Shown piece after piece: positions 8,877-50,349 of a stretch of 64,000 nt of DNA. A program made the position numbers and the translations under genes. The notes beneath the pieces are model-generated. The model saw nothing but the letters and a program-made list of their open reading frames with translations, did not search any database and was not told the DNA's origin. Every line of letters starts with the position of its first letter. Position 1 is the first letter of the stretch. The stretch spans positions 186,001 to 250,000 of the forward strand of contig QHBK01000019.1 of the NCBI GenBank assembly GCA_003244105.1, written 5' to 3'. The stretch is from Candidatus Eremiobacter antarcticus (GTDB lineage Bacteria > Vulcanimicrobiota > Vulcanimicrobiia > Eremiobacterales > Eremiobacteraceae).

Positions 8877-9437
8877 ATGAAATCCGCTCACCGAGTAGAC
8901 CCCATCGCGCTGGCGGCTGTCGTAGCGGTGGGGGCGTTCTTCGGGCTGTCCGGATCCGCCCATGCCGCGCGTGCCACCAGATCGTTCGACGTTTCGGTGA
9001 ACGCTCACCCTGCGGCGGTCGTGACCTTGAGCGCCAGCAATTTCTATTGGGCAAATATCGCGTCGCAAGACCGCGTGCCGTCCGATAATGGTCCCGTGGC
9101 CGTCACCGGCACGATGCGCACGTCAGCAAATGGCGGAGGCGGCAGCATCGGCGTGATGTCGCCAAACAATTTGACCGGTACGCAGCAAGCAAACCACACG
9201 CTCAATATCAGCCAGTTCTCTTTGGGCTGCAGCGGGTCCGGCAACGTCGGCACGCAGCCGACGTATGCGCCGCTCTACACCGTGCTGGCAGCGCAATCGA
9301 CCGTGCCATGCGCGACATGGGGCCAGGGCGCCACGTCTCATCTCAATTTCTTGTTCAACCTCTTCCTCGACGGCCGCGGCTTGCCGAGCGACACGTACGC
9401 ATCCAACGGCTTCGCACTGATCGCAAGCTCCACGTAA
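8877..9437 (+). CDS. Secreted pilin-like protein (spore-coat-U/CsuA-B-like), copy 1
   Basis: The 186-residue product has a signal peptide (about residues 1-30, ending AHA) and a beta-rich mature part starting FDVSVNAHPAAVVTLS. It holds two Cys (in LGCSGSG and VPCATWG), which may form a disulfide. The C-terminal block FNLFLDGRGLPSDTYASNGF resembles the terminal strand of spore-coat-U/Csu pilins. Closely related ends occur in the next gene (LDLFLNEQTISADTY) and in the Ig-repeat protein at 11.3-14.5 kb (LNMFLDDRALPADNY). I chose ATG 8877 for its signal peptide and the upstream AGGGAA; an in-frame start exists at 8847. Its place before chaperone- and usher-like genes supports a structural-subunit role. 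Confidence 0.7.
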   Translation: MKSAHRVDPIALAAVVAVGAFFGLSGSAHAARATRSFDVSVNAHPAAVVTLSASNFYWANIASQDRVPSDNGPVAVTGTMRTSANGGGGSIGVMSPNNLTGTQQANHTLNISQFSLGCSGSGNVGTQPTYAPLYTVLAAQSTVPCATWGQGATSHLNFLFNLFLDGRGLPSDTYASNGFALIASST

Positions 9438-9638
9438 GAGACCTTCGTCCTCTCATATGAAGTCGTGCCGTTCGACTTTGAACTAAGTACAAACTAAGCA
9501 CTATCCAAAATACGGACTAAAGCCTTAGGTGATCTCGGTCACACCCGATTTATGTTGGGCATCTATTAGATGACCCGGCTTACTGTCGGGCCGGGAAATC
9601 GTTTCCGACCCCGGATCACCCGTTTGCAAGGAGCTCCC

Positions 9639-10193
9639 ATGTTAAAGAGAGTCATTCTCGCAGTTGCCGCAACAGCGATCGTCGCTGCCGCGATGCAGCC
9701 TGCGAACGCCGCAACGGCCACAGCGCCGTTCGACGTGAACGCCCAAGTCAACACCATCGCGACCCTCACCTTCGATACCCCGACCTACAACTGGAACTCG
9801 ACGACCAACACGAACGCCGCTCTTCCGTCATCGAACAACTCCGGCACGGGCGTGTACAGCCTGCGCGGCACCTACGGTGTTGCTCCCTCCATCATCTTCA
9901 GCGCGCCGGCAACGATCGGCGGCACGCACGCCAATAGCATCCCCGTCTCGACATTCTCGTATGCCTGCTCGCAAGGTGCTGCTCCAGTGAACGGCGCCGG
10001 CGGCGCAGTCGCCGCGACCTACTCCAACGGTGGCATGACCACGAGCAATGCTTGCGCAGCCTTCCCCAACGGCGCATCAGTGGCACCGGGTGCCTCATTC
10101 AAGCTCGACCTGTTCCTCAACGAGCAGACGATCTCGGCTGACACCTACTCGACGACCGGCGGCGCATTCGTCATCACATTGACCGCCAACTAA
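9639..10193 (+). CDS. Secreted pilin-like protein (spore-coat-U/CsuA-B-like), copy 2
   Basis: The 184-residue product starts MLKRVILAVAATAIVAA, with a signal peptide ending near residue 24 (ANA). A strand-rich mature part starts ATAPFDVNAQVNTIATLTF and parallels copy 1. Two Cys occur, in FSYACSQ and SNACAAF. The C-terminus is KLDLFLNEQTISADTY followed by GGAFVITLTAN, the shared terminal strand. ATG 9639 has a strong AAGGAG eight bases upstream. The gap 9438-9638 holds the promoter and an inverted repeat CCCGGC/GCCGGG at 9574-9595. It is probably the major fibre subunit, or one of two; this is inferred from size and neighbours. Confidence 0.7.
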   Translation: MLKRVILAVAATAIVAAAMQPANAATATAPFDVNAQVNTIATLTFDTPTYNWNSTTNTNAALPSSNNSGTGVYSLRGTYGVAPSIIFSAPATIGGTHANSIPVSTFSYACSQGAAPVNGAGGAVAATYSNGGMTTSNACAAFPNGASVAPGASFKLDLFLNEQTISADTYSTTGGAFVITLTAN

Positions 10194-10497
10194 CAAACGC
10201 GAGGATCTACACCACACGCCATTCGCTCGTCAGCTCGTACCGCGCGGTCAAACGCTCTGACCGTACGGAACGCGCAGACAAGCGGATGGCGTGTCACTTT
10301 GTCACCGTAAGGATTAGCATGCTTCACAGCAGTCGCAGCGTTGGATTCGGGGCCTCCAGTGCGGGATCGAAACCGCTCAGTTTAGGCCCTTTTCTTGCTG
10401 AACTGCGCGTTTCCGCCGATACAATAAGGTATGAGCGGCAGCGCTTTTCCTACCATGCTGGCCGCCAATTCTCGTTTGCATCGTTGCAGAGGTTAGC
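10194..10497. other. Intergenic region with possible promoter
   Basis: 304 bases without a convincing gene. A TACAAT hexamer at 10420-10425, with TTGCTG 19 bases upstream (10395-10400), could drive the chaperone gene. AGAGGTTAGC just before ATG 10498 includes its ribosome-binding site. I see no terminator with a T-run after the pilin-like gene. Confidence 0.4.
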
Positions 10498-11292
10498 ATG
10501 AAAATCACACGCGTCACCTTACTTGGTCCGCTGTTCGCGGCGCTGCTCGTCACCGCTTTGAGCATGCCTGCTGCGGCGAACCTCTCGATCACCGTTCAGC
10601 CCTTGGTCTCGGAGCTGAGCGTCGCGCCAGGGGGCTCGGGCCACGTGAAGGTGCTGATCAAAAACAGCGGCACGGCGGCCGAGCGCATCATCGCCCGGCC
10701 GGTGGATTGGCGCACGCTGAGCGACGGATCGACGACGCTCGAACGGCCCGGTGCAGAAGGGGACAGCTCGATCACGCGATTCCTGTCGCTGTCTGCATAC
10801 CAATTCGACTTGCAGCCGGAGGAGACGCGCGAGCTCGCTCTGACGCTCGAGATGCCTGGCACGTTTTCCACCAAGCCCGCATCGTACTGGGGCGGCTATC
10901 TCGTGAGCGCTGCACCGGTGGTCAACCCTTCGTCTGCGATCGGTGTTGCCGCGACCGTGTTTGTGTATCAAAACATCAACAAGCCGCGCAAGCACATGCA
11001 GATGAAGTCGATGCACGTGGCTTCCGCCGCCAACGGCACGGCCAAGCTAGTGGCGCATTTGCAGAACGACGGCCAAGGCTACTGCAGATCGCAGTCGCGA
11101 TTGCTCATCCAACAGTCCGGCCGCATCGTGCGCGAAGACAAGGTGACCTTTCCGGTGTTGTTCCCGGGCGCGAGCAGAACCCTCACGCAGAACATCGACA
11201 AACTCCCGCCGGGCGACTATCAGTTCGAGCTGACGTTTGACTACGGCGGATCTTCCATTCTCGACGGCGTGACGCGCGCCCAGATCAAGTAA
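10498..11292 (+). CDS. Periplasmic PapD-like chaperone, copy 1
   Basis: 264 residues with a signal peptide (about 1-25, ending AAA). It looks like a two-domain Ig-fold periplasmic chaperone. The N-terminal domain has LSITVQPLVSELSVAPGG, then VKVLIKNSGTAAERI, the usual strand-A/B pattern with a beta-strand N(S/T)G turn. The C-terminal domain ends PPGDYQFELTFDYGGSSILDG. It matches the paralogue at 14503-15291 along its whole length, including VDWRTL, KPASYWGG, the Q-SGRIVRE block and the DYGG-ILDGVT ending. Chaperones of this fold donate a strand to pilin subunits. The pilin-like genes upstream and the usher-like gene downstream fit that role. The exact family is not confirmed. Confidence 0.68.
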   Translation: MKITRVTLLGPLFAALLVTALSMPAAANLSITVQPLVSELSVAPGGSGHVKVLIKNSGTAAERIIARPVDWRTLSDGSTTLERPGAEGDSSITRFLSLSAYQFDLQPEETRELALTLEMPGTFSTKPASYWGGYLVSAAPVVNPSSAIGVAATVFVYQNINKPRKHMQMKSMHVASAANGTAKLVAHLQNDGQGYCRSQSRLLIQQSGRIVREDKVTFPVLFPGASRTLTQNIDKLPPGDYQFELTFDYGGSSILDGVTRAQIK

Positions 11293-11326
11293 CTGACAAG
11301 CACTCTTCAGACCGGAGACTCTCGAC

Positions 11327-14300
11327 GTGTTAAATCGAATCGCCCGAACGTTTTGCGCCAGCGCACTGGTTGTTGGCCTCGTGGCGAGTTCGGTTTCGTC
11401 GGCACTTGCAGCTGTAACTTTCTCCCCTGCGCCCCCCTCCACATTGAACATTGGACAGGTTTCGGGAAACATTGGCATCGTGGGATATAGTACTCCCTGT
11501 CACGCCACGGACTCCGCAGCTTTAACGCAAAGCGGAACCGGGAGCGTAGTTTTTACTCCCACCTCGACCACTATGGCTGGAACATTTACGATCACCGGTC
11601 AGACTGCCGGCAGCGTTACGATAACGGCTAACGACACCCAGCATGGAGGGTGTTCGGTCTCTGCAACTGTCACCGTCAACACCCCGGGTGCGCTGACCGT
11701 CAGCACGAGCACTCTTACGTTTAGCGGCACCACCACGCCGCAGACCTTCACATCTTCGGAAACGAACTATAACGGTGCCATCAATGCCGTGAGCGGGACT
11801 CCCAGCGTTGCGACCGTTAGCCCCGCTTCTGGGAACGGTCCCGGGCCAGTGACGTTTACCGTGACTCCGGTGAACGCGGGCACCAGCACCATAACCGTGA
11901 CGGATAGTCACGGGGGCAACAAAACCGTCACGGTTACCGTCACCGCAGGTGCATTGACGCTCAACAAGTCCACGCTAACGTTCAGCGGAACTTCGGCCCA
12001 GCAATCATTCACTGCGCAAGAAAATAACTTCACCGGGTCCATCAATGCCGCGAGCGGCACTTCCAGCGTCGCTACTGTAAGCCCATCGTCAGGCTCAGGG
12101 CCAGGACCGATCACATTCAACGTCACGCCTGTGAACGCGGGTTCCAGCACGATAACGGTCACGGACGGCCATGGCGGCAGCCAAACGGTGGTCGTCACCG
12201 TGACATCTGGGGCTCTGACCGTCAGTCCCTCGAGCTTGTCGTTTACGAGCACTGCCACTCAGACGTTCACCGGGTCCGAAGCGAATTACACGGGGCCGAT
12301 CAACGCCGCTAGCGGCAACACCGCCGTTGCGACAGTCAGCCCTGCATCGGGCAGCGGACCCGGGCCCGCGACTTTCACGGTTACTCCCGTCGGTGCCGGC
12401 TCGACAAACATCACCGTGTCGGACAATCATGGCGGCAGCCAAAACGTCGCGATTACCGCCAGCACCGGAACGCTCACCGTGAGCTCCAACACTTTGACGC
12501 TGAGCGCGAACGGTGCCAACGGATCGTTCACCGCGTCTGAAAGCCTTTACAGCGGTCCGATTAGCGTGTCGAGTGACGCGACCAGCGTTGCAACGGTAAG
12601 CCCCGCTTCCGGCAACGGACCAGGGCCCGTGACTTTCACAGTGACGCCGGGTACCAGCGGCACGGCTCACATCACCGTGACCGACAACCACGGCGGGAGC
12701 CAGACGGTGACCGTAACCGTCAACGCGGGCGCACTCACGGTCAGCGCAAACACGTTGGCGTTGACGGCGGGCGGATCCAATGGTACGTTCACCGGCGCTG
12801 AAAGCGGTTATATCGGTCCCATCAACGCGTCCAGCGACGCCACGGGCATAGCCACCGTCAGTCCTGTGTCCGGCACCGGTCCAGGACCTGTCACGTTTAC
12901 CGTGACCGCTGTTACCGGCGGCACAGCCCACATCACCGTCACGGACAATCACGGCGGAAGCAAGACGGTGACGGTCACTGTGAGCGCAGGTCCGCTCAGC
13001 GTTAGTACGAGCACTCTCACGCTGACGGCCGGCGGAGCAACTGGGACGTTCACCAGCTCTGAGACAGGCTACACGGGCCCGATCAATGCATCCAGCAATG
13101 CCACAGGTGTGGCGACGGTGAGTCCGGCAGCAGGTACGGGGCCTGGACCTGTCACGTTCACAGTCACGCCTCTGAGCACCGGAACGGCCACGATTACTGT
13201 CACTGATAATCACGGTGGCAGCACGACCGTGACGGTAACTGTTCAAGGATCGCTCAGCGTCAGCACAACGAGCCTCGCGCTATCCCAAGGCGACGGCAGC
13301 CGCACGTTCACCGCTTCCGAGCCAGGCTACGTTGGCACAATAAGCGCGAGTTCTTCCGCAACGAGCAAGGCGACCGTTTCGCCGGCGTCGGCCACAGGCC
13401 CAGGACCCGTCACGTTCACCGTCGCCCCAGTGGCTAACGGCACAGCGACGATCACGGTAACGGACGATCACGGCGGGAGCAAGACCGTCTCGATAACGGT
13501 GACCGGACCGCTTACGCTAAATCCGACGTCGCTCAACTTCAACGGAACGAGCGCAACCCAAAACTTCATCGCCAGCGATCCTAGCTACACCGGTAACATT
13601 ACGGCAACATCCGGTAATGCGGCGGTCGCGTTGGTGAGCTCCACTGGTGCAGCTGGAACCACGGCGACTGCGTTGGGTCCATCAGCGACGTTCACCATCA
13701 CACCGGTGGCGCAATCCAGCGCCTCAGGCAGTACCACTATCACGGTGACCGATGTCAACGGTGGCAGCACGACGGTTTCCGTAACCGTAACCGCAGGCGC
13801 TCTTACGCTCACCCCGACCAGCCTGACCTTGAGCGGCGTCGGCGCAACGGGAACATTCAACGCTTCGGAAGTGAATTACAGTGGGCCGATAACCGCCACA
13901 AGTGCGGCCAACGGCATCGCAAAGGTAAGCCCAGCCTCAGGTACGGGTCCCACTCCGGCACCCTTCACGGTCACGGGCAAGGGCTTCGGCCACACAACGA
14001 TCACGGTGGCAGACAACCACGGCGGCTCTCAAGGTCTTCCAGTGGTCGTGCCGGGCGCAACCATCAGCATCAACTCCAGCTCGATTGCATTCAACGTCAC
14101 GGATAACACGAATCAGCATTATCCCAACATCGCGCCACTGGTCGTGACGGGCGGATTGCAGACGACCGCCGTCGGGAGCGCCTCCATCGTGGTCATGTCG
14201 CCGGCCAGCATTCCCGCGCCGCTTCATCCCGCGAACTCGGTACCGATCTCCAGCCTTACGTTCAACTGCGTCGACAACGGATCGGGCAACAACCAGGGCG

Positions 14301-14497
14301 CTACGGGTTGGGCTGGCTCGTTCACTCCGCTTGTGGCAAGCCCGGGATCGTCGTCCTGCGTCAGCTTCCCCGGCAACGCAACGGTCACGCCGGTTCTGAA
14401 CTTCAACCTGAACATGTTCCTCGACGATCGCGCGCTGCCGGCCGACAATTACCAATCCAGCGGCGGTGGCTTCACGCTCCTCCTGTCGGCGACGTAA
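11327..14497 (+). CDS. Giant secreted Ig-repeat protein with C-terminal pilin-like domain (putative adhesin)
   Basis: 1056 residues: signal peptide to about residue 30 (SALAA), an N-terminal domain with paired Cys (TPCHAT, HGGCSV), then nine Ig-like repeats of about 87 residues (DNA 11693-14060). It closes with a pilin-like domain of about 145 residues holding TFNCVDN, SSCVSF and the terminal LNMFLDDRALPADNY-GGGFTLLLSAT. Each repeat carries SVATVSPASG-GPGPVTFTVTP and ITVTDNHGGSKTVTVTV. The last domain is the same type as the two small pilin-like proteins, so this looks like a tip or stalk adhesin loaded by the chaperones. The start is GTG 11327 with CCGGAG upstream. The next gene starts five bases after its stop. 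Confidence 0.78.
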   Translation: MLNRIARTFCASALVVGLVASSVSSALAAVTFSPAPPSTLNIGQVSGNIGIVGYSTPCHATDSAALTQSGTGSVVFTPTSTTMAGTFTITGQTAGSVTITANDTQHGGCSVSATVTVNTPGALTVSTSTLTFSGTTTPQTFTSSETNYNGAINAVSGTPSVATVSPASGNGPGPVTFTVTPVNAGTSTITVTDSHGGNKTVTVTVTAGALTLNKSTLTFSGTSAQQSFTAQENNFTGSINAASGTSSVATVSPSSGSGPGPITFNVTPVNAGSSTITVTDGHGGSQTVVVTVTSGALTVSPSSLSFTSTATQTFTGSEANYTGPINAASGNTAVATVSPASGSGPGPATFTVTPVGAGSTNITVSDNHGGSQNVAITASTGTLTVSSNTLTLSANGANGSFTASESLYSGPISVSSDATSVATVSPASGNGPGPVTFTVTPGTSGTAHITVTDNHGGSQTVTVTVNAGALTVSANTLALTAGGSNGTFTGAESGYIGPINASSDATGIATVSPVSGTGPGPVTFTVTAVTGGTAHITVTDNHGGSKTVTVTVSAGPLSVSTSTLTLTAGGATGTFTSSETGYTGPINASSNATGVATVSPAAGTGPGPVTFTVTPLSTGTATITVTDNHGGSTTVTVTVQGSLSVSTTSLALSQGDGSRTFTASEPGYVGTISASSSATSKATVSPASATGPGPVTFTVAPVANGTATITVTDDHGGSKTVSITVTGPLTLNPTSLNFNGTSATQNFIASDPSYTGNITATSGNAAVALVSSTGAAGTTATALGPSATFTITPVAQSSASGSTTITVTDVNGGSTTVSVTVTAGALTLTPTSLTLSGVGATGTFNASEVNYSGPITATSAANGIAKVSPASGTGPTPAPFTVTGKGFGHTTITVADNHGGSQGLPVVVPGATISINSSSIAFNVTDNTNQHYPNIAPLVVTGGLQTTAVGSASIVVMSPASIPAPLHPANSVPISSLTFNCVDNGSGNNQGATGWAGSFTPLVASPGSSSCVSFPGNATVTPVLNFNLNMFLDDRALPADNYQSSGGGFTLLLSAT
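11693..14060 (+). repeat. Nine tandem Ig-domain repeats, about 263 bp each
   Basis: In-frame tandem array inside the giant adhesin gene. Units begin with variants of L-T-V-S-x-S-T-L-T and end TVTVTVTAG. They are clearly diverged at DNA level, except the GGPCCnGTnAC and GACAAnCACGGCGG cores. The array is protein-coding, not CRISPR: there are no spacers and the unit length is a multiple of three. Confidence 0.9.
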
Positions 14498-14502
14498 CCC
14501 TG

Positions 14503-15291
14503 ATGCGCCGCATCATTCCCCGCCTGGCGGCACTTGCCGTCGTGCTTGCGCTGGGTGTCTCTGAGCGGGTGGTCGCGGCAGATCTGTCGTTGGGCGTCGA
14601 TCCGCTCGTCATCGAGTTCACGGCGAAGCCCGGAGCATCGGCGCGCGCCTCGATCGTCGTGTCGAACGCCGGCAACCAAGTAGAGCACGTCATAGCGGTG
14701 CCGATCGACTGGCGAACGCTGTTCGACGGCAATATCGCGGTTGAGCGTGCAGGCGCCGAGGGCGCTCGCTCGCTGACCTCAGGCCTCACCCTGTCCGACA
14801 CGGATTTCGTGCTGCAGCCGCGACAGGTTCGCACGCTGACGCTGACGCTTGAGGTTCCGACGTCGAAGCCCGCGACGCCCGCGTCCTACTGGGGCGGTTT
14901 TCTCATCGAAGCCAAGCCGCTCGGCGCTCCCGGCGACAGCCTGGGCACCGGTGCTACGGTGTTCGTCTACGACAACGTCGGTCAGCCTCGGCGGCATCTG
15001 GCGATGCGTTCGCTGCGCCTGACAGGATCGGGAGACCAGACTCGCGTTGAGGCGCGGTTGCGCAATGACGGAGATTCGTATTTGCGCATCGCTTCGCACC
15101 TGGCGATCCAGCAGGCGGGGCGCGTCGTGCGAGAATTCGATATCCCCATGAACTCGATGTTCCCACAAGCAGAACGGCTGTTGCGCCAGCCCTTGCGCGG
15201 GTTGGCCCCGGGCGATTATCGCGTAGAGCTCAGCTTCGATTACGGCGGCGAAACAATACTTGATGGCGTCACGCAAGTCCGGATTCGGTAG
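14503..15291 (+). CDS. Periplasmic PapD-like chaperone, copy 2
   Basis: 262 residues, signal peptide about 1-25 (ending VAA). It is a full-length paralogue of the chaperone at 10498-11292: LSLGVDPLVIEFTAKPGASARASIVVSNAG, then PIDWRTLFDG, PASYWGGFLIEAKP, ATVFVYDNVGQPRRH, AIQQAGRVVRE and PGDYRVELSFDYGGETILDGVT. Having two chaperones around one giant subunit suggests different clients. ATG 14503 lies five bases after the adhesin stop, and the usher-like gene begins within its 3' end (29-base overlap). Co-translation of adhesin, chaperone and usher-like protein is therefore likely. Confidence 0.68.
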   Translation: MRRIIPRLAALAVVLALGVSERVVAADLSLGVDPLVIEFTAKPGASARASIVVSNAGNQVEHVIAVPIDWRTLFDGNIAVERAGAEGARSLTSGLTLSDTDFVLQPRQVRTLTLTLEVPTSKPATPASYWGGFLIEAKPLGAPGDSLGTGATVFVYDNVGQPRRHLAMRSLRLTGSGDQTRVEARLRNDGDSYLRIASHLAIQQAGRVVREFDIPMNSMFPQAERLLRQPLRGLAPGDYRVELSFDYGGETILDGVTQVRIR

Positions 15292-17419
15292 AGCGTTTGG
15301 GGTTCTGCTGTGTGCCGCGCTTGCCGTGGGTGCAGTGGCTGCTCCTCAGACGCTTTCGCTGACCGTGAACGGCAAGACCGCGCAACGCGTACCCGTGCTG
15401 ATGAATGGCACGCGGGTGATGGTCGGCGTCGAAGGCGTGGCCGCCGGCTTCAGCCTGCCCGTGCACCGCACCACCAACACCGCTTCGCTTCAGGTCCAAG
15501 GCTCGCAGCTGACGCTAACCGACGGCGACGTCGTCGTGCGGCAGGGCACGGCCGCCATCATGCATCTTACCGCCTCGCCGGAAGTCCGCTCGGGCCAGTT
15601 CTTCGTGGATACAGCTGACCTGCCCGCGCTCTTCGACGTCGACGTCGACGTCCAGCCGGCCGGTCTGACGCTGACGTCAACGAGCCGCCCTGTGGATCCG
15701 AAAGACGGCAGTGGGGGTTTCCACACGAAGGACGTGCCTACACCGCGTCCGACAGTCAACCCGCATCCCAACAATCCGAACGAACCTGCGGCCGACGGGT
15801 CGGCCATACGCAGCATCGGGCACGCGACCGGCAGCCTCAATACGTCCGGCGGTTCACGGTCGTTCTCCATGGGCGTGCAGGCGGCGGGCGACAAAGCCAC
15901 GACGAACGTCTACGCCAACGGTTCCAACGGCCAAACGACCACCTTCGGCGGCACCATGCGTTTCGGCATGGGGCAAAAGCACGTCGCCTTCGGCAGCATC
16001 ACGGATCCCATGCAAGGCATCGCCTTCACAGGCGGCAACGACACGGGAATAGAGATCGGAAATGCCTCGGGCCTCATGCTGGCGTCAGCCCTACGCCAGG
16101 TCGATCTGCGCAACATCACTGCGCTGAGCCATCAAAGCAACAACCTGACCGAATCTTTAGCGGTCGAGGCCAAGCACGGCAAATTCGAGCAGGCCTTGCT
16201 CGGCCTGCGCAAGACAACGTCCTTTGGCAGCGGCAGCATCGGACGTGAATTATGGGTGGGGGATCACGGAATCGCAGGTGGCCTCTCCTTGCAGACATCA
16301 GGCCGCCTGTTCGCGGATTTCGCGGTGGGTTTTGCGGGCGCCGGGCTGCTCGTGAATCCGGGCGATGCGCCGCTGCGTTTGAACGCCGGATACAGACTCA
16401 GCCCGGCAGTCACGCTCATCGGCAATGTCAACTCCGGCATCGGGCGATTCGGCACTGCGTCCGGCGGCTTCCTTATCCAACGCCCTAATCTGCAATTCTC
16501 GCTCACGCGTTTTTCCACCGCCACGTCTGTGGACTTGGGTTTGAGCGGTCCAAATAAGAGCGCCGATTTCTTGGTGACGAGCGGCGTAGGTCAAGAGTCC
16601 ATGAACTCACGAGTCGTGCTGCCGCTCGGCCAAGGCGCGCTGAATATGCTGGCTTCATTCGCGACGGGCGGATCGCAGGACGATCTCTTGTCAATGCAGT
16701 TCAAGCGCGAGGGCACGAGCCCAATATTGGGAGTCGAGCATGTCAGGTCCGGCGATATCTCGCGCATCGGGCCGGTTGTGGGCCTTTCCTTTCCGCTTGG
16801 AAGCTTGCTGCGAATCAGCGCTGCTATCCACCCGCTGACCAACGGCAACGGCCTTCAGGTAAATCTGGATCAGACGCTGCAATACACGAGCAGGCCGCGC
16901 TTCAACGTGGAAAATCTCAGCCTCGCCGGCACGTCTGCGTCGCCGCTTTTCGTGTATCTCGACGGCATTCAGAACCAGCCGGTCAGCATCGGGGCGGCTA
17001 CGCTCAAGATCCCGCGCGGCAGCCATTACCTGTCGGTCCAGTCGGCGGACAAGCTGCTGGCGACGCAGGCCGTGCGGGTCACCGACGTCGGACCTAAATC
17101 CGTGGCGCTGCAGCTGTGGCCATTCCGCACGGTCAAGGGCGGAGTACAAGTGGAAGGAGCCACGGCCGTCAACGGCGCGCAGACGCCGCTGGGCGCGATC
17201 ACGGTGAGGTTACAGCCGGGCGACTACGTCGCTCAGACCGATGCCAACGGCAACTTCGAATTTCCGCCCACGCCGCTCGCTCCCAACACGACCATCAGCG
17301 TGGATTCAGACACCGTGTCCAGCGACTTGGCTGCAGGCGAAGCGCAGCCGCTGCCCGCCGATGGCCCGGTCATCGTTCTATTGCACCCGAGCAAGAAGCT
17401 TGAGAAAGTGACCTTCTGA
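15263..17419 (+). CDS. Usher-like outer-membrane protein with N-terminal stalk-type domain
   Basis: 718 residues with a signal peptide (about 1-26). The first part (about 28-140) resembles copper-amine-oxidase-N/stalk domains (SLTVNGKTAQRVPVLMNGTR, then a second unit with VRSGQFFVDTADLPALFDV). After a Pro-rich linker, about residues 180-550 show dense alternating strands such as FGGTMRFGMGQKHVAFGSI, consistent with a large barrel. The last part (about 560-718) has PEGA/carboxypeptidase-like elements: LFVYLDGIQNQPVSIG, then a DANGNFEFPPTPL block. Classical FimD ushers have similar organisation but different sequence, so this is usher-like by position and architecture only. TTG 15260 or ATG 15263 can start it; both overlap the chaperone gene. 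Confidence 0.6.
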   Translation: MASRKSGFGRAFGVLLCAALAVGAVAAPQTLSLTVNGKTAQRVPVLMNGTRVMVGVEGVAAGFSLPVHRTTNTASLQVQGSQLTLTDGDVVVRQGTAAIMHLTASPEVRSGQFFVDTADLPALFDVDVDVQPAGLTLTSTSRPVDPKDGSGGFHTKDVPTPRPTVNPHPNNPNEPAADGSAIRSIGHATGSLNTSGGSRSFSMGVQAAGDKATTNVYANGSNGQTTTFGGTMRFGMGQKHVAFGSITDPMQGIAFTGGNDTGIEIGNASGLMLASALRQVDLRNITALSHQSNNLTESLAVEAKHGKFEQALLGLRKTTSFGSGSIGRELWVGDHGIAGGLSLQTSGRLFADFAVGFAGAGLLVNPGDAPLRLNAGYRLSPAVTLIGNVNSGIGRFGTASGGFLIQRPNLQFSLTRFSTATSVDLGLSGPNKSADFLVTSGVGQESMNSRVVLPLGQGALNMLASFATGGSQDDLLSMQFKREGTSPILGVEHVRSGDISRIGPVVGLSFPLGSLLRISAAIHPLTNGNGLQVNLDQTLQYTSRPRFNVENLSLAGTSASPLFVYLDGIQNQPVSIGAATLKIPRGSHYLSVQSADKLLATQAVRVTDVGPKSVALQLWPFRTVKGGVQVEGATAVNGAQTPLGAITVRLQPGDYVAQTDANGNFEFPPTPLAPNTTISVDSDTVSSDLAAGEAQPLPADGPVIVLLHPSKKLEKVTF

Positions 17420-17561
17420 CGACATGCGCTCCATAGGCATCTCATATGCTATTGCGCCGGCGCGCATGGGACCGTCGACTGTCCGGACGCCGAAGGCTAG
17501 GGGTATTACCAATGTACGGCGCCAGGGGTTTGTGCCGTCTTTTGCTTTGTTCGGGAGCGGT

Positions 17562-20018
17562 ATGGTGTTGAGGCTCATTCGATGTTGGTTGGCGATGATT
17601 GTGGTTTTCGTCGCGCTCACGCCCGCTGCCATGGCGGCCCCCTTCGGCGTGAACGTCACCAAACAAGCCCAGCCGTTGACCGTATCGCCTACCACTTTGA
17701 CGCTTTTTTCCAATGGCGCTACCGGCAGCTTCACCGTCTCCGAAACCGCCTACAGCGGAAACTTCACGATCACGAATCCTAACACGAGCGTCGCCACGGC
17801 CGCGCCAATGACAAGTGCCGGCCCTGGACCGAACACGATCACCGTCACGCCGCATGCAGCCGGCACGGTCACCTTGACCGTCGCCGACGATCATGGCGGC
17901 AGCCAGACGGTGAAGATCACTGTCACCGGACCGCTCACCGTCAGTCCCTCGAGCTTGACGCTGAACGCGAACGGCAGCAACGGCACCTTCACGGCGTCGG
18001 AATCAAATTACACGGGTCTCATCAGCGCGTCGAGTTCCAACACGGCCGTCGCCACGGTGACGCCTGCATCAGGAAGCGGACCGGGTCCGCTGACCTTCAC
18101 CGTGACTCCGCACGCGGCCGGCAGCGCGACCATCACCGTGACCGACAATCATGGCGGCAGCACGACGGTTTCCATCACCGTGTCGGGCGCCAGCCTCGTG
18201 TTGAGCAAATCAACGCTAGCCCTCAAGGCGAACGGCAGCACCGGCGATTTCAACGCGACTGAGTCAGGCTACACTGGGCCGCTTAGCGCCGTCAGTTCAA
18301 ACACGAGCGTTGCCACTGTGACGCCGGCATCTGGATCGGGCCCGGGCCCAGTGGTCTTCACGGTGCAGCCGCACGCCGCGGGCAGCGCTACCATCACCGT
18401 CACCGACAATCACGGCGGGAGCAAGACCGTTGTCGTGACCGTGACTGGACCGCTTACGCTGAGCCCATCGAGCCTGACGCTCAGCGCCAACGGCAGCAGC
18501 GGCACGTTCACAGCATCGGAGGCCAACTACACGGGGCCGATCAACGCGCTGAGTTCCAACACGAGCGTCGCCACTGTGACGCCTGCATCAGGCACAGGGC
18601 CAGGTCCGGTCACATTCACCGTTGCACCACATGCAACGGGCACCGCGAACATCACCGTGACGGATAATCAAGGCGGAAGTCAGACCGTTGCGATCACCGT
18701 GACCGGCGTGTTGACGCTGAGCAAAACGGCCATCTCGCTGAAGGCGAACGGCAGCAACGGCAGCTTCACCGCAACCGAAACCAACTATACAAACCTGTTA
18801 AGCGCGGCCAGCTCGAACACGAGCGTGGCGACCGTGACCCCTGCTTCGGGCAATGGCCCTGGGCCGCTGACCTTCACCGTCCAGCCGCATGCCGCGGGTA
18901 ACGCGATGATTACCGTGACCGACAACCACGGCGGCAGCAAAACGGTCGCGATCACCGTAACCGGTCCGCTGACGCTAAGTCCCACCAGCCTGCCGCTGAC
19001 TGCAAACGGCAGCAATGGCACGTTCGCCGCCTCTGAAGCCAACTACACGGGGTCGATCAACGCGCTGAGTTCCAACACGAGCGTCGCAACGGTCACGCCT
19101 GCATCCGGCACCGGCCCTGGTCCCGTGACGTTCACCGTGCAGCCGCATGCCGCGGGGAACGCGACCATCACCGTCACCGACAATCAAGGCGGAAGCCAAA
19201 CAGTCGCGATCGCAGTGACAGCAGCGCTCACGCTCAGCAAGACAACGCTCGCGCTCAAGGCGAACGGCAGCAGCGGCACCTTCACCGCAACCGAAACCGG
19301 CTATGCCGGTCTGCTCGCCGCGACTAGCTCGAGCACGAGCGTCGCGACGGTAACGCCCGCTTCGGGATCCGGGCCAGGGCCAGTGACGTTCACCGTGCAG
19401 CCGCATGCCAGCGGCAATGCAACCATCACGGTGACCGACAATCACGGCGGCAGCAAGACGGTTGCCATCACCGTGACAGGGCCGCTCAGCGTCACCACAT
19501 CAGCCATGTCGCATGCGCCCAACGGCGCCAGCGGCAGCTTCAACGCATCCGAATCGAATTACACCGGTGTCATCAGTGCCGTGAGCTCAAAGACGAGCGT
19601 GGCGACGGTGACACCCGCTTCCGGCAACGGGCCCGGGCCCTTGACGTTCACCGTACAGCCGCACGCGGCTGGCACGGCAACCATCACCGTGACCGACAAC
19701 CAGGGCGGAACCCAGACGGTGACTATCACCGTGGCCGCCACGAGCGGACTTACGGTCAGCACGTCAGCCTTGAAGATCAAGGCTGACGAGGGCACTGGCA
19801 CCTTCACCGCTTCAGAAACAGGCTACACCGGCCCGATCAGCGTGTCGATCTCGGACACGAGCGTCGCGACCGTTACGCCCTCCTCCGGCAACGGGCCCGG
19901 TCCCGTAACATTCACCGTCAACGCGAAGAAGAAGGGCACGGCCACGATCACGGTGACCGACAATCACGGCGGCAGCAAGATCGTGACGGTCACGGTCAAG
20001 GACAAAGACGAAGACTAA
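17562..20018 (+). CDS. Giant secreted Ig-repeat protein without pilin domain
   Basis: 818 residues: signal peptide (about 1-27, ending AMA), then nine Ig-like repeats of about 86 residues reaching almost to the end, and a short charged tail KDKDED. The repeats share the SVATVTPASG-GPGP-TFTV core with the 11.3-kb adhesin but are far more alike among themselves. Units 3, 5 and 7 are one type (LSK, LKANG, NHGGSKT). Units 4 and 6 are another (LSPSSL/LSPTSL, NQGGSQT), with 2 and 8 partly matching. There is no pilin-like end, no LPXTG and no obvious membrane anchor, so attachment is unclear. I chose ATG 17562 for its signal peptide and GGGAGCGG; the frame is open back to 17424. Confidence 0.78.
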   Translation: MVLRLIRCWLAMIVVFVALTPAAMAAPFGVNVTKQAQPLTVSPTTLTLFSNGATGSFTVSETAYSGNFTITNPNTSVATAAPMTSAGPGPNTITVTPHAAGTVTLTVADDHGGSQTVKITVTGPLTVSPSSLTLNANGSNGTFTASESNYTGLISASSSNTAVATVTPASGSGPGPLTFTVTPHAAGSATITVTDNHGGSTTVSITVSGASLVLSKSTLALKANGSTGDFNATESGYTGPLSAVSSNTSVATVTPASGSGPGPVVFTVQPHAAGSATITVTDNHGGSKTVVVTVTGPLTLSPSSLTLSANGSSGTFTASEANYTGPINALSSNTSVATVTPASGTGPGPVTFTVAPHATGTANITVTDNQGGSQTVAITVTGVLTLSKTAISLKANGSNGSFTATETNYTNLLSAASSNTSVATVTPASGNGPGPLTFTVQPHAAGNAMITVTDNHGGSKTVAITVTGPLTLSPTSLPLTANGSNGTFAASEANYTGSINALSSNTSVATVTPASGTGPGPVTFTVQPHAAGNATITVTDNQGGSQTVAIAVTAALTLSKTTLALKANGSSGTFTATETGYAGLLAATSSSTSVATVTPASGSGPGPVTFTVQPHASGNATITVTDNHGGSKTVAITVTGPLSVTTSAMSHAPNGASGSFNASESNYTGVISAVSSKTSVATVTPASGNGPGPLTFTVQPHAAGTATITVTDNQGGTQTVTITVAATSGLTVSTSALKIKADEGTGTFTASETGYTGPISVSISDTSVATVTPSSGNGPGPVTFTVNAKKKGTATITVTDNHGGSKIVTVTVKDKDED
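17676..20000 (+). repeat. Nine tandem Ig-domain repeats with two-unit periodicity
   Basis: In-frame tandem array, about 258 bp per unit. Odd and even units alternate in sequence type over units 3-8, giving a higher-order period of about 516 bp. This points to duplication of a two-domain block. Confidence 0.88.
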
Positions 20019-20385: not shown

Positions 20386-21476
20386 ATGGCGGCGGGCATG
20401 TTCTGGCAAGTCGGCTGGAGCCTCGTGCTCGGCTTTGCGATCTCGGGATTCATTCAAGCATTCGTCTCTAAGGAGCGCATGCGCCGGCAACTGGGGGCGA
20501 GCGGACTGCGTGAGGTTGCCTTAGCCACCGCGTTGGGCGCCGCCAGCTCGAGCTGCTCGTATGCGGCGGCCGCCGTCAGCAAGAGCCTGTTCAAAAAAGG
20601 CGCCGGGCTGATCCCTTCGCTGGCCTTTCTGTTCGCATCCACCAACCTCGTGGTGGAGCTAGGCATCATCATCTACCTGCTCATGGGCTGGCAGTTCACG
20701 GTGGCAGAGTGGGTGGGCGGAATCGTGCTGATCGCCGTGATGTCGCTGTTGGTGAAGTTCACCTACCCTGCGCGTCTCGTCGAGGAGGCGCGGGGCGCAC
20801 GCCGAGACGGCCGAGGCTGGGCGCGAGCACGGCGATATGACGGTCGAAAGTGCGACCTTCGCAGAAAAGCTGCGCAACCCGCAAGCGCGCATCTTGGTGG
20901 CGGAAAACTTTGTGATGGATTTTCGATGCTGTGGAAGGACCTGCTGGCCGGATTCCTCATCGCAGGTGCGCTGGCGGTGCTCGTGCCTTACGGGGTTTGG
21001 CAAGCGTTGTTCCTGAACGGCGCGCCGGCATTTTTGCAAGTGCCGCTGAACGCGGTCGTGGTCCGCTCATCGCGATCGTGTCCTTCGTCTGTTCAATCGG
21101 GAACGTGCCGCTGGCGGCTGTGCTGTGGGCGTCGGGCATCAGCTTCGGAGGGGTGCTTGCGTTCCTATACGCAGACCTGATCGTGCTGCCGCTGCTCGAC
21201 ATCTACCGCCGGTACTACGGCTGGCGTATGGCGCTGTACATCGGCCTCATTTTCTTCGTCACGATGGTCTTGAGCGGCATACTTATGGACCTTGTTTTCA
21301 GCGCTTTGCATCTCGTGCCCGCAGCCAGCCCTCATCTAGCATCCGATGTCGACACGTTCAAGATAAACTACACCTTTTGGTTGAACGTGCTGCTCGGCGG
21401 CTTGGCCGCGTATTTGTTTTTGGTGAACGCGAAGCATCCGATGCACGAGAGCCACTGCGGTCATCACGCCGCGTAA
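20386..21476 (+). pseudogene. Permease of the ArsP/DUF318 type, frame broken at three homopolymers
   Basis: Predicted metal or metalloid efflux permease. Conserved pieces are MAAGMFWQVGW, the SSCSYAAAAVSKSLFKKGA motif, FVMD-FSMLWKDLLAGFLIAG, GPLIAIVSFVCSIGNVPLAA, and SFGGVLAFLYADLIVLPLL followed by YYGWRMALYI. They fall in different frames. GGGG at 20792-20795 looks one G too long, TTTT at 20920-20923 one T too short, and GG at 21060-21061 one G too short. Between the first two, the correct frame reads HAETAEAGREHGDMTVE and EKLRNPQARILVAENFVMD. An in-frame nine-codon ORF (20314-20343) with a good ribosome-binding site precedes the gene and may be its original start. Either a decayed gene or base-calling errors. 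Confidence 0.8.
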
Positions 21477-21560
21477 AGTAAATCATATTGGACCGTTGTG
21501 CGGACTATGTCTGTGTCGGCCGATACTATAATAAGACCCTTTCATCTGTAAGGAGAAAGC

Positions 21561-49293: not shown

Positions 49294-50349
49294 TCAGCTC
49301 TTCAAGTTTAGATCGATAGTCTTGCTTTCTCGCGTGTTGGGCGCGACTGACGTGATGCGCACCGTTACGCTTCCGCCGGACAACGCTTGCACGCTGACCC
49401 CTTGCGAAAAGCGGCCGTTCGCGTCCGCGGTCACGTCGGCTGTGTAGGTGCCGGACGACACTCGGAAGATGCCGCCCAAGAGCGAGGTCGGCACCACGAC
49501 GATGTGAACGACGGAATTCGGCAGCGTCCTGCCGCTGACGGTAAAGTTGCCGCCGACCGTACTGCCGTCCACGGGCCGCAGGTTATTGATAAAGTTGCCC
49601 GTACTGGCGGCCCCTCCGGACGTAAACGACCAGCTCTGGTCAAACGCGGCACCGTTTTCGTCCTTGCCGGTCACCCGCACGGTATGACTCGCGGCGGTGA
49701 GGTTGTACGTCGGAGTGAACAAGAAGTCGCGGCTGGAGATGTCAGTCGTGCTCGACACGTCTCTGCCGTCCAGCGTGATGTGCACGGAATTAGGATCCAC
49801 CGGCGAGCTGAAGGAAGCTGACACGGCTGGGCTCCGGGCCGAAGTAACCGAGTCGGGCTCCGGGCGCTGGTTGTTCAGCGTGACGCGAGCGGTGGGAGCT
49901 TGCGTGTTCCCTCCTCCCCCGCCCATGGAGATCCTTACCGTCGACGAGCTGTTGTCGTAGTCCACAGTTGCGCCCAGCGCCTGGGATACGAAACGCAAGG
50001 GCACCATCGTGCGCGGGCCCACCAGAAACGGAGCGACGTCCAGCTGCTGCGACGCGCCGTTCACGAGCGCATCGCGAGACCCGATGTGCAGCTGCACGGT
50101 GCGGCCATTGCCGGTGGCGTTGATGACGCCGTTGGAATAGACGACGCTTGCGCCCAAGCGCTCGAAGACGCCGCGCAGCGGCACGAAGACGCGGCCCGCC
50201 TGCTCGATCGGCGGCTGGTCGAACTGCACTTGCTGCCCGTTGACGACGATTGTGACGTTGGCAGCGTTGACCATATGAGAAGTCGCCATGACCAGCGCAA
50301 CGGTCGCAACGACGCCAGCGAGGTCGCGCAGCGTCAGATGGAGCTTCAT
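49294..50349 (-). CDS. Secreted stalk-domain (copper amine oxidase N-like) protein with Ig-like region
   Basis: 351 residues with a signal peptide (about 1-30, ending VNA). Two stalk/Cu-amine-oxidase-N units cover about 31-145: VNGQQVQFDQPPIEQAGRVF, VPLRGVFERLGASVVYSNG, then PRTMVPLRFVSQALGATV. A Gly-run linker leads to an Ig/Big-like domain with VTLNNQRPEPDSVTSARSPAVS and SHTVRVTGKDENG. A last beta-domain (about 245-351) begins NFINNLRPVDGSTVGGNFTVSG. Stalk domains are common in wall-associated proteins of Firmicutes-like lineages. Role unknown. A strong terminator follows. Confidence 0.8.
   Translation of the reverse strand: MKLHLTLRDLAGVVATVALVMATSHMVNAANVTIVVNGQQVQFDQPPIEQAGRVFVPLRGVFERLGASVVYSNGVINATGNGRTVQLHIGSRDALVNGASQQLDVAPFLVGPRTMVPLRFVSQALGATVDYDNSSSTVRISMGGGGGNTQAPTARVTLNNQRPEPDSVTSARSPAVSASFSSPVDPNSVHITLDGRDVSSTTDISSRDFLFTPTYNLTAASHTVRVTGKDENGAAFDQSWSFTSGGAASTGNFINNLRPVDGSTVGGNFTVSGRTLPNSVVHIVVVPTSLLGGIFRVSSGTYTADVTADANGRFSQGVSVQALSGGSVTVRITSVAPNTRESKTIDLNLKS

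Follow-up and report, generated by a model that had tools for sequence, protein, structure and literature searches.

A probable far-diverged branch of chaperone-usher-type fibre assembly, with a giant Ig protein as candidate tip adhesin, in Candidatus Eremiobacter antarcticus

Introduction

In chaperone-usher (CU) pili the chain subunits (FimA and FimG) bear a donor strand and the terminal adhesin (FimH) bears a binding part instead. In the WxL surface complexes of Firmicutes, the protein WxLIP is predicted to supply an edge strand that completes the WxL sandwich (PMC10599100). We analysed a 64,000-nucleotide stretch of Candidatus Eremiobacter antarcticus (contig QHBK01000019.1, positions 186,001 to 250,000; hereafter the window), in a genome of 2.64 Mb. 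Seven genes at positions 8877-20018 of the window probably encode a new, far-diverged branch of donor-strand (chaperone-usher-type) fibre assembly with a giant immunoglobulin-like (Ig) tip adhesin. The sole described cultured relative has an envelope of the usual Gram-negative build, outer membrane included; the little-known phylum, Eremiobacterota, is diderm (PMC9758169), which we count in favour of this reading.

Archaic and alternative CU pili (Csu, CFA/I and ECP) resemble the cluster in several respects: a predicted two-Ig chaperone fold, a barrel of about 24 strands (in the cluster predicted at low confidence), subunits with a C-terminal strand and an N-terminal extension, a tip protein with an extra N-terminal part and the operon order subunit-chaperone-(subunit)-usher. 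The chaperone family of the cluster also has profile homology to chaperones of the PF00345 (PapD_N) family. Unlike in those systems, no part of the cluster falls into the CU families of Pfam, the barrel protein P0006 is predicted to lack a plug and has a Cu_amine_oxidN1-like N-terminal domain, and the candidate tip protein P0004 carries an array of nine Ig repeats. In our alignment, another residue stands in place of the F1-strand arginine of archaic chaperones (PMC4654587) both in the window's architecture (type A) and in a sister architecture (type B).

The WxL/WxLIP (DUF916-DUF3324) clusters of Firmicutes contain the closest solved relative of the cluster's chaperones, WxLIP, and likewise hold small and large proteins with a common C-terminal domain. 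The cluster differs from them in its diderm host and the barrel in its operon, its chaperones have neither a membrane helix nor a DUF3324 match, and it has no WxL domains.

The gene cluster and its relatives

The first-pass annotation had placed seven genes here in a single direction, and the open reading frame (ORF) coordinates bear this out. The genes and their parts are as follows (AF2, AlphaFold2; E, expect value; Prob, profile-profile probability).

8877-9437, + strand: P0001, small pilin-like subunit with N-terminal donor-like extension (24-subunit alignment, nine genomes)
9639-10193, + strand: P0002, another small subunit of the P0001 kind (24-subunit alignment)
10498-11292, + strand: P0003, predicted periplasmic two-Ig-domain chaperone-like protein, WxLIP/DUF916-related (AF2, Foldseek, PF06030)
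11327-14497, + strand: P0004, giant with nine Ig repeats and then a subunit domain without an N-terminal extension of its own; candidate tip adhesin
11687-14050, + strand: nine Ig-like (Big_2) repeats of P0004, residues 121-908 (repeat profile; Big_2 E 4e-13)
14060-14494, + strand: subunit domain at the C-terminus of P0004, about residues 912-1056 (E 9e-45 in a profile search of the genome itself; alignment)
14503-15291, + strand: P0005, second chaperone-like protein, paralogue of P0003 (48% identity)
15263-17419, + strand: P0006, predicted outer-membrane barrel at the usher position (AF2, Foldseek)
15347-15679, + strand: N-terminal Cu_amine_oxidN1-like ('stalk') domain of P0006 (PF07833 in homologues)
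15809-16885, + strand: region of P0006 predicted as a beta barrel, without an insertion the size of a plug (AF2)
16910-17416, + strand: carboxypeptidase-regulatory-like domains at the C-terminus of P0006 (Prob 97.5 against the sister barrel family)
17562-20018, + strand: P0007, nine Ig repeats, no subunit domain (repeat profile); possible earlier start at 17424

The intergenic gaps are, in order, 201, 304, 34, 5, -29 and 142 bases. Genes 3-6 (10498-17419) are thus tightly coupled, with gaps of only 34, 5 and -29 bases, the last being an overlap of the P0005 and P0006 genes; genes 1, 2 and 7 are set apart from their neighbours by 142-304 bases. Scanning the seven proteins against Pfam and NCBIfam returned little beyond the Big_2 Ig repeats and a weak CarboxypepD_reg match in P0006.

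Homologues of P0003 were found in 44 of 120 genomes of the class, and their neighbourhoods resolved into the two architectures. Type A, that of the window, runs small subunit(s), chaperone, a further small subunit, sometimes a second chaperone, and a barrel of about 700-780 residues. It occurs in nine genomes (G000, G037, G085, G100, G105, G108, G110, G113 and G116), eight of which keep this order; in G113 the subunit without an extension is found immediately upstream of the chaperone. Conserved gene order in related genomes, a check proposed with the first-pass annotation, was thereby found, the order recurring in eight other genomes of the phylum, well beyond what chance would give. Type B, present in about 30 genomes of the phylum, starts with a barrel protein of about 1040 residues, followed by a subunit, a chaperone, usually two more subunits and a giant of about 1370 residues (loci L042-L074, e.g. 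L043:4713-14947 and L053:4147-14453). Its barrel protein carries three carboxypeptidase-regulatory-like domains, and its giant ends in the same C-terminal strand.

Only the window genome has the system among 14 sampled genomes of its family, and the remaining type-A genomes all come from a different family. The system was therefore likely acquired by transfer or repeatedly lost.

True CU systems also exist in the phylum: PF00345 and PF00577 (usher) each occur in 23 of 148 genomes, largely the same ones and at neighbouring coordinates. Their small subunits end in spore-coat-U style (YTDTVTVTLNF). These archaic-type systems lie at loci (L079-L094) apart from the one studied here, and the window's system is distinct from them.

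A cluster with the gene order of the window's cluster, including a chaperone and a barrel-sized protein, lies on Deinococcus plasmids, where type-B chaperones find matches at E 4e-14. Its four genes encode a subunit-like protein, a chaperone, a small protein and a barrel-sized protein of 1013-1090 residues (L136:7869-13554, L137:7941-13514, L139:7945-13547), all annotated as hypothetical or by domain only (e.g. U2P90_RS19260 to RS19245). Profile comparison gave Prob 99.9 for the chaperone family and, against the type-B barrel family, 99.0 for the barrel. The small proteins are not recognisably related by sequence, and there is no Ig giant. Deinococcus psychrotolerans also has the chaperone (NZ_CP034185.1).

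Subunits and Ig proteins

We aligned 24 subunits from the nine type-A genomes and counted N-terminal lengths from the signal-peptide site to a landmark aromatic residue. The subunits fell into two kinds. Chain-type subunits, encoded upstream of the chaperone, have at least 25-28 residues between the mature N-terminus and the first landmark aromatic, and this extension holds an alternating hydrophobic stretch (e.g. TFTVAATVNTIATV). Six single-domain subunits encoded between chaperone and barrel have 16-18 residues before the landmark, and the alternating stretch is absent. In the window and in G085 an Ig-repeat protein fills this second position, the subunit being its C-terminal domain. In all subunits, and in the type-B giants as well, a beta-strand-like stretch runs up to the stop codon; P0001 has two conserved cysteines besides. 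The two small proteins that had been called pilin-like, P0001 and P0002, are of the extension-bearing kind.

The repeat profile confirmed both proteins described earlier as nine-repeat Ig proteins. In P0004 the repeats, of about 86-87 residues, share a mean identity of 57%; those of P0007 are of the same length, span residues 37-813 and share 70%. A pilin-like end had been ascribed to the giant at 11.3 kb, and P0004 indeed ends in a domain homologous to P0001 and P0002 (blastp, E 3e-10 and 8e-9). Any extension of that claim to the second Ig protein fails, since P0007 (17.6-20.0 kb) has repeats like those of P0004 and no such incorporation domain. A search of the whole genome with the subunit-domain profile returned exactly three copies, in P0001, P0002 and P0004.

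None of 13 subunit domains had a Pfam match, the WxL domain included, and type-A subunits matched those of the sister type weakly, partly through the signal peptide. By analogy, the split into subunits with and without an extension, together with the Ig giant, resembles the layout of a CU pilus.

Chaperone-like proteins

The AF2 model of P0003 (mean predicted local distance difference test, pLDDT, 78.8) consists of two beta sandwiches. It has no C-terminal helix and ends in a strand (residues 254-263), lacking the C-terminal membrane helix of WxLIP-type proteins. Against solved structures, Foldseek ranked Enterococcus faecium WxLIP first (9i25_C, E 3e-12 to 4e-11), followed by the CU chaperones CfaA (2e-9) and CsuC (3e-8) and then FimC and Caf1M, with both domains covered; some eukaryotic Ig-like proteins were interspersed among the matches. 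Template modelling (TM) scores to the WxLIP and CU chaperones were about 0.4-0.6 and root-mean-square deviations 6-9 Å, as expected if the inter-domain angle differs.

Sequence profiles gave a similar picture. WxLIP was again the best solved structure for the chaperone family (E 0.004), and 31 of the 37 family members matched PF06030 (WxLIP_PGBD) at E 0.1 or better, the best at 2e-7. A few exceeded the curated cut-off, and P0003 fell below it (13.1 bits against 27.3). PF06030 is also present in Thermotoga maritima, which has an outer envelope as well. In profile-profile comparison with the PF00345 chaperones of the phylum itself, the family matched at Prob 97.3, with 194 columns that take in both domains, against scores below 1 for reversed and shuffled templates. 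FimC and FimD used directly as single sequences gave no match. A DYGG-like motif near the C-terminus is common to FimC and 35 of the 37 family members, and with tblastn a type-B chaperone found the chaperone of an Acinetobacter operon ordered spore-coat-U/chaperone/usher/spore-coat-U (E 2e-3, 95% coverage). Nearly all type-B chaperones have a basic residue at both classical carboxylate-holding positions. The position of the archaic F1-strand arginine is, in our alignment, glycine in type A and isoleucine or similar in type B.

In a phylogenetic tree the type A (support 100/99), type B (88/87), Deinococcus (98/93) and PF00345 (100/100) chaperones each group together. Profiles and model relate the family to WxLIP as well as to the CU chaperones, and as currently defined neither of these includes it. 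We place P0003 and P0005 in a sister branch nearest WxLIP/DUF916 and outside the PapD family. The PapD-like nature once proposed for the two proteins is thus upheld for the predicted two-Ig fold, that of strand-donating chaperones, and not for family membership. Because WxLIP itself is predicted to complete the WxL sandwich, strand donation is the mechanism suggested as common to these proteins. Our literature search found no papers joining DUF916 with ushers.

A second chaperone of the P0005 type occurs only in the window genome and G085, the two genomes whose terminal subunit bears Ig repeats. The second chaperone and the Ig-fused terminal subunit may have arisen there in one event.

The barrel at the usher position

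An outer-membrane protein had been proposed at the usher position. In its AF2 model, of low overall confidence, residues 183-541 of P0006 form 25 strands joined by short turns, and local pLDDT is roughly 70-85 over much of this stretch. The top four Foldseek matches to solved structures were all PapC (E 4e-6 to 6e-6), and FimD translocation domains also appeared. A soluble or unrelated protein, one of two outcomes that the first-pass annotation had named as speaking against its proposal, is thus not what the prediction gave; as to the other, chaperones lacking a strand-swap groove, the two-Ig fold predicted for P0003 is that of strand-donating chaperones. Matches of the P0006 alignment to solved structures were at chance level, and a scan of 84,980 genomes with the single protein returned nothing; the family is present in 9 of 149 genomes of the phylum.

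The flanking domains had been described as stalk and PEGA-like. The first description holds: PF07833 (Cu_amine_oxidN1) matched two of seven P0006 homologues, the best at E 0.0032, and a profile of the domain matches many other proteins of the phylum. The C-terminal domains are carboxypeptidase-regulatory-like instead of PEGA. They resemble those of the type-B barrel, and these in turn match the C-terminal domains of ushers (Prob 95.0), which is moderate evidence of a link because such sandwich domains are common.

The same Cu_amine_oxidN1-like N-terminal domain is found in another protein of the window (50050-50328, - strand). Matches to the C-terminal domains had pointed to a possible third architecture, which was dropped as most had no adjacent chaperone. 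Separately, loci L125, L128 and L129 hold another conserved set, with 700-850-residue proteins carrying N(T/V)ASATY-type repeats, a 1100-residue protein ending in FGWGK/R and further secreted proteins; the gene in the middle of this set has the C-terminal domain of the barrel families and no adjacent chaperone.

Discussion

The first-pass annotation had called the system chaperone-usher-like and undescribed. That description is supported by the match of its chaperones to CU chaperones over both domains, the PapC-like predicted barrel and the two kinds of subunit. To these are added the conserved gene order and the homology of the subunit domains. From this anatomy we infer strand complementation and exchange, translocation through P0006, the tip position and adhesion. 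Subunits would enter the periplasm via their signal peptides, where P0003 or P0005 would bind each one at its C-terminal strand and lend it an edge strand that completes the open Ig fold. The complex would dock at P0006 in the outer membrane; there the N-terminal extension of the next subunit would displace the chaperone strand, and the chain would be passed outward. P0001 and P0002 would form the shaft of the fibre. P0004 could only cap the chain, because nine Ig repeats replace the N-terminal extension of its subunit domain, and would sit at the tip as a long-armed adhesin. For P0007, our guess is a separately secreted partner.

Several results weigh against a donor-strand fibre. The PF00345, PF00577 and PF05229 (spore-coat-U) models, with which the first-pass annotation would have had the system checked, matched no cluster protein, P0006 included for the usher model. 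None of the 37 chaperone family members matched PF00345 at E 0.1. PF00345 and PF00577 are also absent from the whole window genome, an absence not explained by the phylum, since 23 of 148 genomes have them. Type-A chaperones have no counterpart of the basic residues with which classical chaperones grip the C-terminus of the subunit. Confidence in the P0006 model is low (mean pLDDT 53.8, predicted TM score 0.38, four sequences only), and it shows no plug, the largest inter-strand break being about 17 residues. Its PapC match is support and not proof, because other large barrels are close behind and TM-scores to solved structures are at most 0.45, those to ushers at most 0.40. Compared directly with ushers by profile, P0006 gave a non-significant Prob of 9 (reversed control, 6), and the match of the sister barrel to ushers lies mostly in the common C-terminal sandwich domains, not in the barrel (6.4). 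Profiles of the subunits found no pilin, nor any other match, among solved structures, and the likeness of type-A subunits to the spore-coat-U pilins of the phylum is weak and partly due to the signal peptide.

The same chaperone results could reflect a WxL-like surface complex in a diderm, in which P0003 and P0005 stay bound to the subunit domains instead of being recycled as chaperones, and P0006 serves only to anchor an Ig adhesin complex that forms no fibre. By both profile and fold, WxLIP is the solved structure closest to the chaperones, most family members match PF06030, and WxL clusters too combine a WxLIP with a small protein and a large multi-domain one that has the same C-terminal domain (PMC10599100). 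Yet P0003 and P0005 have no C-terminal membrane helix, the subunits do not match the WxL domain, WxL systems have no barrel partner, and subunits with and without an N-terminal extension fit chains rather than a fixed complex. We consider this alternative unlikely. A loose set of secreted Ig proteins with an ordinary barrel (a porin or other transporter) as neighbour, its chaperone-like proteins having an unrelated extracytoplasmic role, would suit the non-significant barrel-usher comparison and the commonness of Ig and carboxypeptidase-regulatory domains among surface proteins, but is very improbable given the order conserved in nine genomes, the P0005/P0006 overlap, the joint presence of the components in Deinococcus and in a second architecture, and PapC as top structural match of the barrel.

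If donor-strand assembly is correct, the cluster would add a CU branch invisible to current family models, in at least two phyla outside Proteobacteria, one of which includes Deinococcus, a genus readily cultured and engineered. The WxL surface proteins of Gram-positive gut bacteria, which are poorly understood, would be connected with the pilus pathway that has been studied best, and WxLIP function would gain an explanation open to testing; the cluster may link two bacterial surface systems hitherto treated as unrelated. More tentatively, and with the odds against it, WxLIP-type proteins and CU chaperones might be branches of one strand-donating chaperone family. Eremiobacterota and Deinococcota would then have kept an intermediate, a WxLIP-type chaperone with an usher, and the WxL complexes of Firmicutes would be a remnant after loss of the outer membrane and usher.

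Other observations

Scans of the cluster for promoter and terminator consensus sequences found nothing above chance. Downstream, a permease-like coding region (20386-21481, + strand) appears to be divided between two overlapping frames (ORFs 20386-21180 and 20931-21476), reflecting either an assembly frameshift or a broken gene.

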